This document shows positions 2,809 to 40,201 of a stretch of DNA of 64,000 nt, piece by piece. The notes under the pieces were generated by a model that was not told the DNA's origin, searched no databases, and was given only the letters and a program-made list of their open reading frames with translations. The position numbers and the translations under genes are program-made. The stretch's first letter is position 1. Every line of letters starts with the position of its first letter. This DNA comes from Goleter apudmare HA4340-LM2 (GTDB lineage Bacteria; Cyanobacteriota; Cyanobacteriia; Cyanobacteriales; Nostocaceae): assembly GCA_019359495.1 (NCBI GenBank), contig JAHHHF010000089.1, positions 1 to 64,000 on the forward strand, in the 5' to 3' direction.

Positions 2809-5800
2809 ATGCTCATATCTTCTCATGATTTGACAGCAGCTAATCTCGAATCAGCGATCGTTCGCAATCCACTGATGGTTTCGCCAAATACATCCGTGAG
2901 CGCAGCGATCGCCTTGATGAGTGGTAGTCGTGCTGTGTGTTCATCTTCCAGAGAGGCAGATACAGAAATTGCGGCTTTGCATCTTGAGGCGCGCTCAAGT
3001 TGCGTGTTGATTGTCGAAAAAAATCAACTATTAGGAATTTTTACGGAACGGGATGTGGTTCGCCTGAGTTCGCAGAAGCGATCGCTAGAAAATTTAGCCA
3101 TTGATCAGGTGATGGCACATCCAGTCATTACCTTACAGCAATCGGCATTTACTGATCTCTTTTTTGTTGTCAATCTACTCCAGCAGTATCACATTCGTCA
3201 TTTGCCCTTGCTCAATGAGCAAAATCAAATCCTGGGACTACTTACCCATGAGAGCTTACAGCAATTGTCACGTCCCATCGATTTGCTACATCTTTGCGTC
3301 GTCGCAGACGCCATGACTCCGCAAGTGGTTTGTGCTGCGCCTAGTGTTTCGATGTTAGCTATCACTCACCTGATGGCAGAAAATCAGGTGAGTTCAGTAG
3401 TCCTGATCAAAGAACAAGTCCAAGAGTCACAAGGTAAAGTCTTGCAAATACCAGTTGGTATTGTCACAGAGCGGGATATTGTGCAATTTCAAGCGCTGCA
3501 ACTAGATTTTGAGCATATTCCAGCACAGACTGTTATGAGCACGCCAGTATTTTCAGCTAGCCCCAAGGACTCTTTGTGGTTCGTCCAACAGGTAATGCAA
3601 CAATACTTAGTCAAGCGGATAGTGGTCACTGGTATTCAAGGAGAGTTGTTAGGGATTGTAACCCAGACAAGTATTTTAAAAGTACTCAATCCTCTGGAGT
3701 TAAACAACTTAGTTGCCATCTTAGAAAATCAAGTTTCTCAGCTAAAAGCAGAGAAATTAGAACTGCTAGAAAATCGCAACGCCGAATTAGAGCAGCAAGT
3801 CCAAGAGCGTACAGCTACACTCAAAGCCAAAGCCGAACGGGAGCAAATAATTACCACCATTGCTACCCAAATACTTTCTTCCCTGAACTTGCAAGATATT
3901 CTGGATAGAACAGTAAAAGAAGTCAGATGGCTTTTAAAGTGCGATCGCGCCATGATTTGGCAGTTTCAACCAGACTCGAGCATGGTTGTAGTGGCTGAAT
4001 CAGTAGCCAGTGGATATGTTTCTTACCTAGGTAAACGAATTCACGATACCTGTTATCGCCATAAACAGACCTTAGTCGTATCTGATATCTACACGAAAAA
4101 GATCAGTGATTGCCATCGTCAACTATTAGAAAATTTAGAGACTCGCGCCAAAATTGTGGTTCCGATTATCCAAAGCGATCACCTCTGGGGACTGCTAAAC
4201 GTCGTTGAAAGTCAAGTACCTAGAGAATGGCTTGCTGAAGAAATCACATTATTACAACAAATTTCCACCCATGTAGCGATCGCCATCCAGCAAGCCACTG
4301 CTTACCAGCAACTACAAACCGAACTAAGAGAAAGGCAACGCACAGAAGCCCATCTCCGACAAAGTGAACAAAGGTACGCTTCTTTAGCAGCCGCAACGCC
4401 AGTTGGGATTTTTCATACTGATGCAGAAGGTAACTGTCTTTACGTCAATGAGCGTTGGTGCAAGATTGCCGGACTAACTCCTGAAGCCGTCGCCACCGGA
4501 TGGATTCACGGAATTCACCCCGATGATCGAGAAAAAGTAGCTGCGGAATGGTGTAATGCAGTGGCAGAAAATCGTCCTTTCCAGCTAGAGTATCGCATTC
4601 AACAGCCCGATGGCACAGTAACTTGGGTATTTGGACAAGCTGTTGCTGAGTCCGATGCCGTAGGGCAAATCACAGGGTATGTGAGAACGATCACCGATAT
4701 TAGCAAACAACGAGCTGCACTACGCGATCGCCAACAGGCAGAAGAACAACTAATTTACAACGCCCTACATGATCCTGTTACCAACTTACCCAACCGGAAT
4801 CTGCTGATCAACCGACTGGAGTTAGCAATTAACCGCGCCAACCGCATCGAAACATATCACTACGCGGTTCTGTTTCTGGATATGGATCGATTTAAAATCA
4901 TCAATGACAGCTTAGGACACTTAGCAGGTGATCAACTACTCAACATCATTGCTCAAAAACTCAAATCCAAGATTCGCAAAGTAGATTTAGCTGCTCGCCT
5001 GGGTAGTGATGAATTTGTGATTTTGCTGGAAAATATCGCAGGTATTGAAGACGCAGTATATGTTGCAGAGCGGATCTTAGCAGAATTTCAAACTCCATTA
5101 ATATTGAATGGATATGAAGTGTTAATCACCGCCAGCATCGGTATTGTTTTAGGTAACAAAGATTATCTGCAAGCCTCAGATTTAATTCGGGATGCAGATA
5201 TTGCGATGTATCGAGCCAAGGCTATAGGGAGGAACTGCTATAAAATTTTTGATACTCAAATGCATACTCAAGCACTCACACGACTCAATTTAGAGAGTGA
5301 TTTGCGTAAGGCAATCGAACGGCAGGAATTTATCGTCTACTATCAGCCAATTTTTGATATTAATAGTAACCATCTGATTGGGTTTGAAGCCTTAGTACGC
5401 TGGCAACACCCCACTCGCGGATTCGTCTCTCCCGGAGACTTTGTTCCCATAGCTGAAGAAACAGGGCTAATCGTGCCTTTAGATAGCTGGATGCTTTATA
5501 CAGCTTGTCAGCAACTAGTAACCTGGCAAATTCAATTCCCTAGTCAATTTCCCCTCAAGGTTAGTGTTAACCTCTCAGTGCAAGACCTCCGCAAAATTAC
5601 TTTAGTTAAAGACGTAGCCCAAATTCTTCAACAGACTGGTTTAGATGGTCGCTGTCTGACACTAGAAATTACTGAGAGTATGCTGATTGAAAACATCACT
5701 GAAACAATCAAAATATTAAAGCAATTAAAAGCACTAGGAATTCAAATCAGCATTGATGATTTTGGCACCGGATATTCATCACTCAATTATCTGCATCGAT

Positions 5801-39168: not shown

Positions 39169-39424
39169 AAAGTTGAGCCACTTCCTACAACGGAGGGAAC
39201 CCTCCACAATTCTGATGCCTGAGGTAATACCAATTCACTAAAATCAAGCAACAGGTACAAACCCTGAAATCCAGCTATCATCTGATTTTCTGAATTTTCA
39301 ATTGGCATCAGATTTCTCTCCACGTTTAATCCTACCTTTTGATAGAGTTCAAGGTTGAAATTATTCAGTTGGATAGAAAGTGTTATGTCTTGTTAACTAA
39401 TTTCTTCGACTAAAACAGATTTTC

Positions 39425-39993: not shown

Positions 39994-40051
39994 TACGAAA
40001 AATGTAACAACGAATAAATTGTTGTGACTTGGATTATGTCGGGAGTATTGT

Positions 40052-40201
40052 ATGCGGACACAAAACAAAGAAAAAGCATTTTTCCTGAGATATCTTTCCC
40101 TAGCACCAGTTATAGCTATTCTTTCAATATCAGTTGCCTTGTCTACCTGGATAATTTTTAATTACTTTTTCCCCGATCTTCTCTTCCATCCTATGCCATA
40201 G
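40052..40201 (+). CDS. psaJ: PsaJ-like photosystem I small subunit (paralogue)
   Basis: A 49-residue protein with a single membrane helix and the PsaJ hallmarks: FLRYLSLAPVIA near the N-terminus (PsaJ: F-S-T-A-P-V) and FNYFFPDLLFHPMP at the C-terminus (PsaJ: F-N-R-F-F-P-D-L-L-F-H-P-L-P). The Shine-Dalgarno GGGAG lies 9 nt before the ATG. In ordinary PsaJ the helix end reads IEFNRF, where the Glu binds a chlorophyll; here this reads IIFNYF, so Glu and Arg are replaced by Ile and Tyr. Canonical psaJ follows psaF; here there is no psaF and the neighbour is DUF4383. It may be a conditional or cell-type-specific PSI subunit. Confidence 0.8.
   Translation: MRTQNKEKAFFLRYLSLAPVIAILSISVALSTWIIFNYFFPDLLFHPMP

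Follow-up and report, generated by a model that had tools for sequence, protein, structure and literature searches.

PsaJ-A, a conserved subfamily of cyanobacterial PsaJ lacking two chlorophyll-ligand residues of the canonical protein

A second psaJ gene in Goleter apudmare

We analysed a 64,000-nucleotide stretch of the Goleter apudmare HA4340-LM2 genome (contig JAHHHF010000089.1, positions 1 to 64,000; hereafter the window). It contains a short gene, here termed psaJ-A, that lies downstream of a DUF4383 gene and a conserved upstream element (Table 1). The translation of psaJ-A, MRTQNKEKAFFLRYLSLAPVIAILSISVALSTWIIFNYFFPDLLFHPMP (49 aa), matches the Pfam family PSI_PsaJ (PF01701) with 39.8 bits (E 6.4e-10; curated cut-off 22.4; 38.9 bits in the genome-wide search), but scores 43.2 bits against the NCBIfam equivalog for canonical PsaJ (PRK02733), below the cut-off of 69. 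Its most hydrophobic 19-residue stretch is LAPVIAILSISVALSTWII. An initial annotation, made from the letters of the DNA, had read the 49-codon frame as a PsaJ paralogue next to a DUF4383 and a pentapeptide gene; the Pfam score of 39.8 bits bears out the identity, and both neighbours were found as described: DUF4383 shares the strand of psaJ-A, and a pentapeptide-repeat gene converges on it from 184 bp downstream. The DUF4383 gene and psaJ-A are probably co-transcribed.

Table 1 Features of the psaJ-A locus, in window coordinates
Feature	Position	Strand	Description
Conserved upstream element	39331..39405	+	Aligned among relatives with different flanking genes
Core of upstream element, TTGATAGAG-N21-TTGGATA	39339-39375	+	Conserved
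DUF4383 gene, 160 aa	39511..39993	+	PF14325, 121.8 bits; 58 bp 5′ of psaJ-A
GGGAG, Shine-Dalgarno-like	40041..40045	+	6 bases 5′ of the psaJ-A ATG; read in the sequence
psaJ-A	40052..40201	+	49 codons, ATG start; Pfam PSI_PsaJ match

A T. elongatus-type PsaJ chain aligns with the window protein without gaps, revealing the substitutions Thr22 to Ala (residue 29), Glu28 to Ile (residue 35) and Arg31 to Tyr (residue 38), with His39 retained (residue 46). Position 26 is occupied by Trp (residue 33), and Asn30 corresponds to Asn37. The canonical ligand set Thr22/Glu28/His39 thus reads Ala/Ile/His. The losses of Glu and Arg had been recognised from the start; that of Thr22 had gone unnoticed.

The genome assembly (6.7 Mb, 113 contigs) holds two PF01701 matches above the cut-off, the window gene and a canonical psaJ of 72.1 bits on contig C72; two further matches, at 14.1 and 12.1 bits, fall below it. 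The annotation had proposed looking for a second psaJ behind psaF, and the canonical gene is indeed located there, between psaF and psaL on C72, so the window gene is a second copy. As C72 carries the sole psaF match of the genome, psaJ-A is unlinked to psaF, as had been claimed, and the alternative that it is a relocated canonical gene and the only psaJ of the genome is rejected. The two PsaJ proteins share 44% identity. We found one full psaA, one full psaB plus an 18-position psaB fragment with stops, and one psaF; there is therefore no far-red set of those genes in this genome, and PsaJ-A would need to share the single PsaF.

PsaJ-A is a conserved family with its own residue signature

Homologues were sought with the window protein as query. 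Matches at E ≤ 1e-11 were obtained in 74 of 217 Nostocaceae genomes; removal of G067, whose match is a psaF-linked Val28-type PsaJ, left 73 genomes with PsaJ-A, and none was found at this threshold in the other 144. The class sample gave matches at E ≤ 1e-10 in 24 of its 388 genomes, of which G494 and G528 were removed (Glu28 PsaJs). Three of the remaining 22 are Nostocaceae already counted, and the 19 additional genomes fall in families f43 and f51. The three rejected loci (L265 in G067, Val28-type; L285 and L286 in G494 and G528, Glu28) are all PsaJs behind psaF. For the analyses below we assembled 95 PsaJ-A loci encoding 91 different proteins. The two surveys supplied 92 of them, that of the window among these, and L048, L051 and L055 were added; the three non-members and the repeat contigs L041, L047, L053 and L072 were left out. 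One of the added loci, L048, comes from a bin titled Tatlockia sp. (Legionellaceae); its contig carries psaF, psaJ-A and psaL, so the DNA is cyanobacterial and the title wrong.

The annotation had also called for a PsaJ tree. A maximum-likelihood tree built from 144 PsaJ rows places every one of the 91 PsaJ-A rows, the window protein among them, on one branch (support 98/97), and seven PsaJ2-type rows form their own branch (100/100) apart from it. The PsaJ2-type rows were set apart by their QYGTF insertion alone, which agrees with the Tyr40 and His45 given in the portion of PMC7002129 available. Two odd sequences, L294 and L015, join the tree beside PsaJ-A, and long branches drew a warning from the program. 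A thinned tree of 92 rows, from which 12 long or odd rows (six of them PsaJ-A) were taken out and in which PsaJ-A was halved, again separated PsaJ-A (99/98) and PsaJ2-type rows (100/98), with a bootstrap that had not settled. The inner branching order is uncertain because the alignment has only 49 columns.

Four marks characterise the family: Ala22, Trp26, a hydrophobic residue 28 and Asn30 (T. elongatus numbering), all present in the window protein (Ala29, Trp33, Ile35, Asn37). Across the 95 loci, residue 22 is Ala in 94 and Thr in one, residue 26 is Trp in 93, and residue 28 is always Ile, Val, Leu or Phe and never Glu. Asn30 is retained throughout and His39 in 89 loci (Tyr in five, Ser in one), and both ends of PsaJ (YLS..PV and PDLLFHP) are nearly unchanged. 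The canonical rows used for comparison were picked by the IEFN motif, so their Glu28 (29/29) is present by construction. Over 35 codons, PsaJ-A genes have a median dN/dS of 0.14 (10–90% range 0.07–0.26); only pairs with dS from 0.3 to 1.5 entered this figure, 2133 out of 4465. Between the window gene and seven relatives, dN is 0.10–0.16 and dS 0.37–0.66. The family is conserved, evolves under purifying selection and stands apart from both canonical PsaJ and far-red PsaJ2. A chance open reading frame or pseudogene is rejected on account of the PSI_PsaJ match, the family of 73 Nostocaceae genomes and the dN/dS values.

The annotation had suggested a role in heterocysts. Most members were found in Nostocaceae, as expected of a heterocyst-specific photosystem I subunit, although this is the family searched most densely. 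Carriers beyond it include Leptolyngbya FACHB-321, Stenomitos rutilans and Tildeniella nuda, whose genera are not known to form heterocysts, and the 144 Nostocaceae genomes in which PsaJ-A was not found argue in the same direction. We therefore regard heterocyst specificity as very improbable. In Anabaena variabilis microarrays, psaJ shows no heterocyst difference, as far as the accessible text of PMC4046671 reports.

PsaJ-A occupies the psaF-psaL operon in four genomes

Sixty-three of the 73 Nostocaceae genomes with PsaJ-A were also covered by a PF01701 survey, in which no more than 37 candidates were scored per genome. Two or more PsaJ matches were found in 60 of them and a single one in three (G004, G112 and G119). 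In G004 and G112, and likewise in G594 and G595, the gene order is psaF, psaJ-A, psaL (4 of 95 loci), PsaJ-A is the single PSI_PsaJ match of the genome at E ≤ 0.001, and there is one psaF. The gap between psaF and psaJ-A measures 38–40 bp in G594 and G595. In G004 and G112 it is 264–343 bp and contains a small open reading frame on the same strand. G112 is 99% complete with 4% contamination and G004 is a 95% complete draft; G594 and G595 are metagenome bins that come with no completeness figure, where a second psaJ copy may have been missed. G119 was dropped as a fifth such genome, since psaF was also not found there and the psaF-psaL stretch is thus probably absent from the assembly.

The psaF-linked PsaJ-A sequences form a small nested group in the tree (88/85), which suggests that PsaJ-A probably took over the operon place within that group. 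G081, from the genus of G004 and G112, has an unlinked PsaJ-A and a Val28-type PsaJ behind psaF. The occurrence of PsaJ-A as a psaF-linked, sole PsaJ in four genomes is the best sign that it can perform the normal job of PsaJ, and a photosystem I role for PsaJ-A is likely.

Two of three chlorophyll ligands are missing

In T. elongatus photosystem I, PsaJ residues Thr22, Glu28 and His39 coordinate three chlorophylls, according to the consulted sections of PMC7002129. In far-red PsaJ2 the Thr22 and Glu28 ligands are lost, the His is shifted by an insertion, and no chlorophyll is seen at any of the three sites (PMC7002129 and PMC10694217, in the parts available). PsaJ-A lacks Thr22 and Glu28 but has no insertion, and would accordingly be expected to keep one chlorophyll. 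Reduced pigment binding by PsaJ-A is thus a reasoned prediction, and a water molecule or a backbone group could still hold pigment.

Like canonical cyanobacterial PsaJ (PF01701; 1jb0 and 6jeo chains), PsaJ-A has one hydrophobic helix and a similar length, and both share conserved APV and PDLLFHP stretches and His39; unlike it, PsaJ-A has Thr22, Glu28 and Arg31 replaced, has lost Trp18, carries Trp at 26, and is linked to psaF in just 4 of 95 loci. Far-red PsaJ2 (FaRLiP cluster; 6pnj_J, 7lx0) resembles PsaJ-A in the loss of Thr22 and Glu28, but its His is displaced by five inserted residues that include Tyr40, and it is accompanied by PsaA2, PsaB2 and others. That insertion, QYGTF in the PsaJ2-type rows, is absent from the window protein, His39 is kept in most PsaJ-A loci, and no second full PsaA, PsaB or PsaF gene, as would be expected with a far-red PsaJ2, was found in the Goleter genome. 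The shared ligand losses could be taken to mean that PsaJ-A is the far-red-light PsaJ2 or part of a far-red photosystem I. We reject this identity, to which next to no probability attaches, given the separate branch, the missing insertion and the single psaA/psaB/psaF set; moreover, PsaJ-A, canonical PsaJ and PsaJ2-type genes coexist in several genomes.

A third type, the Val28-type operon PsaJ, is represented by 7qco_J, the PDB chain that the window protein matches best (43.5 bits); this chain carries Val28 and retains Thr22. Like PsaJ-A, the Val28 type lacks Glu28 and Arg31, with Tyr31 common. The comparison set contains 15 Glu28-less rows outside PsaJ-A; unlike PsaJ-A, these have Thr22 in 13 and Leu26 in 14 cases, and 14 lie on the canonical side of the tree. 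Glu28 is replaced in PsaJ rows L311, L312, L313, L314, L315, L317, L321 and L347–L349, and several Nostocaceae have a Val28-type PsaJ (or one with Ile, Leu, Met, Thr or Gly) in place of the Glu28 PsaJ. In all three Nostocaceae genomes checked (G067, G081 and G017) a Glu28-less PsaJ lies directly behind psaF, so this chlorophyll-ligand Glu is variable in ordinary operon PsaJs. Absence of this Glu is by itself no sign of a special paralogue: the residue is missing from PsaJ-A, but also from the psaF-linked PsaJs of these three genomes and from 7qco_J. The paper on the TS-821 tetramer (PMC8760143) deposits 6QWJ, and neither 7qco nor PsaJ ligands were found in the portion of its text available.

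Gene neighbourhood, DUF4383 and an upstream element

A DUF4383 gene lies directly 5′ of psaJ-A in 14 of the 95 loci (27–172 bp, same strand) and directly 3′ in two (45 and 143 bp). Three of the genomes with adjacent DUF4383 belong to family f51, so the link is either old or has been rebuilt. These 16 loci, with both gene orders and in two families, are what would favour a function of PsaJ-A outside photosystem I, for instance with the DUF4383 membrane protein. Set against this are the nearly unchanged PsaJ ends and the four genomes in which PsaJ-A holds the psaF-psaL operon place as the sole PsaJ found, and we consider such a function improbable.

The upstream element has the form of about CCTACCTTTTGATAGAGT, a spacer, then GTTGAATAGAAAGT across loci. 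It stands 111–230 bp 5′ of DUF4383 in ten loci and 257–258 bp directly 5′ of psaJ-A in three loci that lack DUF4383 there, and presumably serves the DUF4383-psaJ unit as a promoter or regulator site. When up to two mismatches are allowed, the left block has 18 matches over the 1.02 Mb of the 95 loci, and 15 of them lie no more than 900 bp 5′ of psaJ-A and on its strand; with three mismatches there are 45 matches, many evidently due to chance. A strict two-block pattern occurs at 35 places in 31 of 211 genomes, including one in the Goleter genome, against 12 places for a reversed control. Thirty of the 35 places were read together: 15 adjoin DUF4383 and/or psaJ-A, and 15 have none of six genes sought nearby. 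A 31st place (G086:C469, L196) has both genes, and four were left unread. These counts do not support a wider regulon for the element, and no known regulator was identified. At four of the places read (G128, G064, G170 and G062), the element is followed by DUF4383 while the stretch has no psaJ-A, so DUF4383 may be the gene that it primarily serves. Behind the element in G184 (L383), counted among the 15 places with these genes, is only a 16-residue psaJ-like piece, and G121 (L380) has an 83-codon DUF4383 match; both look like decaying remnants of the DUF4383-psaJ unit.

Other neighbours recur. Of the 95 psaJ-A loci, 15 have an SDR gene and 7 a YflT-type gene in the 3 kb upstream, one representative of each having been identified by Pfam. 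In five Nostoc genomes (L200, L221, L222, L223 and L227) psaJ-A converges on psbA at 117–123 bp; one of these neighbours was identified by Pfam, and several of the five contigs end inside psbA. The SDR, YflT-type and psbA genes hint faintly at stress-related use. Of the special roles initially proposed, use under particular conditions is plausible because psaJ-A and DUF4383 share a conserved element and some relatives have the stress-type SDR/YflT cluster.

A possible one-subunit variant of photosystem I

The explanation of PsaJ-A that we favour, at a probability of roughly 0.6, is an alternative PsaJ that sits beside PsaF in photosystem I, binds fewer pigments and is perhaps used under stress together with DUF4383. 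PsaJ-A would take the place of PsaJ next to PsaF, docking through the conserved ends YLS..PV and PDLLFHP, and would hold one chlorophyll, at His39, in place of three. The PsaF/PsaJ edge of photosystem I would then carry fewer pigments, and energy from outer antennae would be passed on differently. More speculatively, in genomes with two psaJ genes PsaJ-A might be made with DUF4383 under particular, perhaps stress, conditions. The variable neighbourhood counts against this explanation, DUF4383 being adjacent in only 16 of 95 loci.

The chief alternative sees in PsaJ-A an interchangeable second copy that plays no special part in pigment binding or regulation, its ligand changes being tolerated drift in a permissive helix. 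PsaJ-A can be the sole PsaJ of a genome, its gene neighbourhoods are diverse, and Glu28 is replaced in other, psaF-linked PsaJs, so that losing a ligand may be tolerated and need not bring a new role. Yet 60 of 63 PsaJ-A genomes keep at least one further PsaJ, and the near constancy of Ala22, Trp26 and a hydrophobic residue 28 in 95 loci is not what drift would give. We judge this alternative unlikely, while giving it real weight.

Exchange of photosystem I subunits has precedents: six of them are replaced as a set in far-red light, and PsaB3 is another case. A widespread variant that concerns one subunit and lacks two chlorophyll ligands would be a small, testable switch at the edge through which outer antennae supply the photosystem. 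A structure of photosystem I with IsiA places carotenoids of two IsiA subunits at 4.6 and 5.8 Å from two chlorophylls of PsaJ, and these carotenoids may pass energy into the photosystem I core (PMC7214436, in the passages available); a PsaJ without those chlorophylls would alter this energy route. A tentative extension is that cyanobacteria without a far-red photosystem swap in the chlorophyll-poor PsaJ under stress, with two pigments fewer at the PsaF/PsaJ edge and entry from IsiA or the phycobilisome weakened or re-routed. Exchange of this single 49-residue protein would then be a minimal remodelling of photosystem I; we regard this as possible, but doubtful. Strains in which PsaJ-A is the sole PsaJ found open the pigment prediction to cryo-EM without engineering, and structural work on genera with PsaJ-A must pick the correct PsaJ sequence.

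PsaJ-A is a real, conserved PsaJ subfamily and, as far as we found, one that has so far gone undescribed: no description turned up in the open-licence literature, among the matches listed (titles, abstracts and partial text), and there was no paper in it on a second psaJ copy in Nostoc or on DUF4383 in cyanobacteria. The fullest survey of photosystem I subunits found (PMC10694217) describes the resolution of its PsaJ tree as poor and treats a third PsaB; no further PsaJ is mentioned in the sections examined. That third PsaB, PsaB3 of Nostocales, is like PsaJ-A a non-far-red photosystem I paralogue, with a patchy distribution in Nostocales and Leptolyngbyales according to the same sections of PMC10694217; unlike PsaJ-A, it is a core subunit and is reported there to be made constitutively, and the Goleter genome has one psaB.

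Other unusual psaJ genes

Several arrangements outside the PsaJ-A family were noted in passing. Microseira wollei NIES-4236 (L065) has tandem psaJ genes, at 4677-4790 (with Glu28) and 5007-5144 (without it), and the single-cell genome of Prochlorococcus AG-402-O21 (L073 / L305) has two psaJ-like genes, one of them without Glu28 (IIVFNYFFPDLLFHPMS). A plasmid of Fischerella sp. NIES-4106 carries a lone psaJ2 with QYGTF (L287 5998-6150; AP018300.1:30326-30478) among transposases and hypothetical genes. In a Trichormus bin (L121, G086:C286), PsaJ ends in FFPDALVFPFL, which we take to resemble an algal plastid PsaJ and which presumably points to plastid contamination of the bin.
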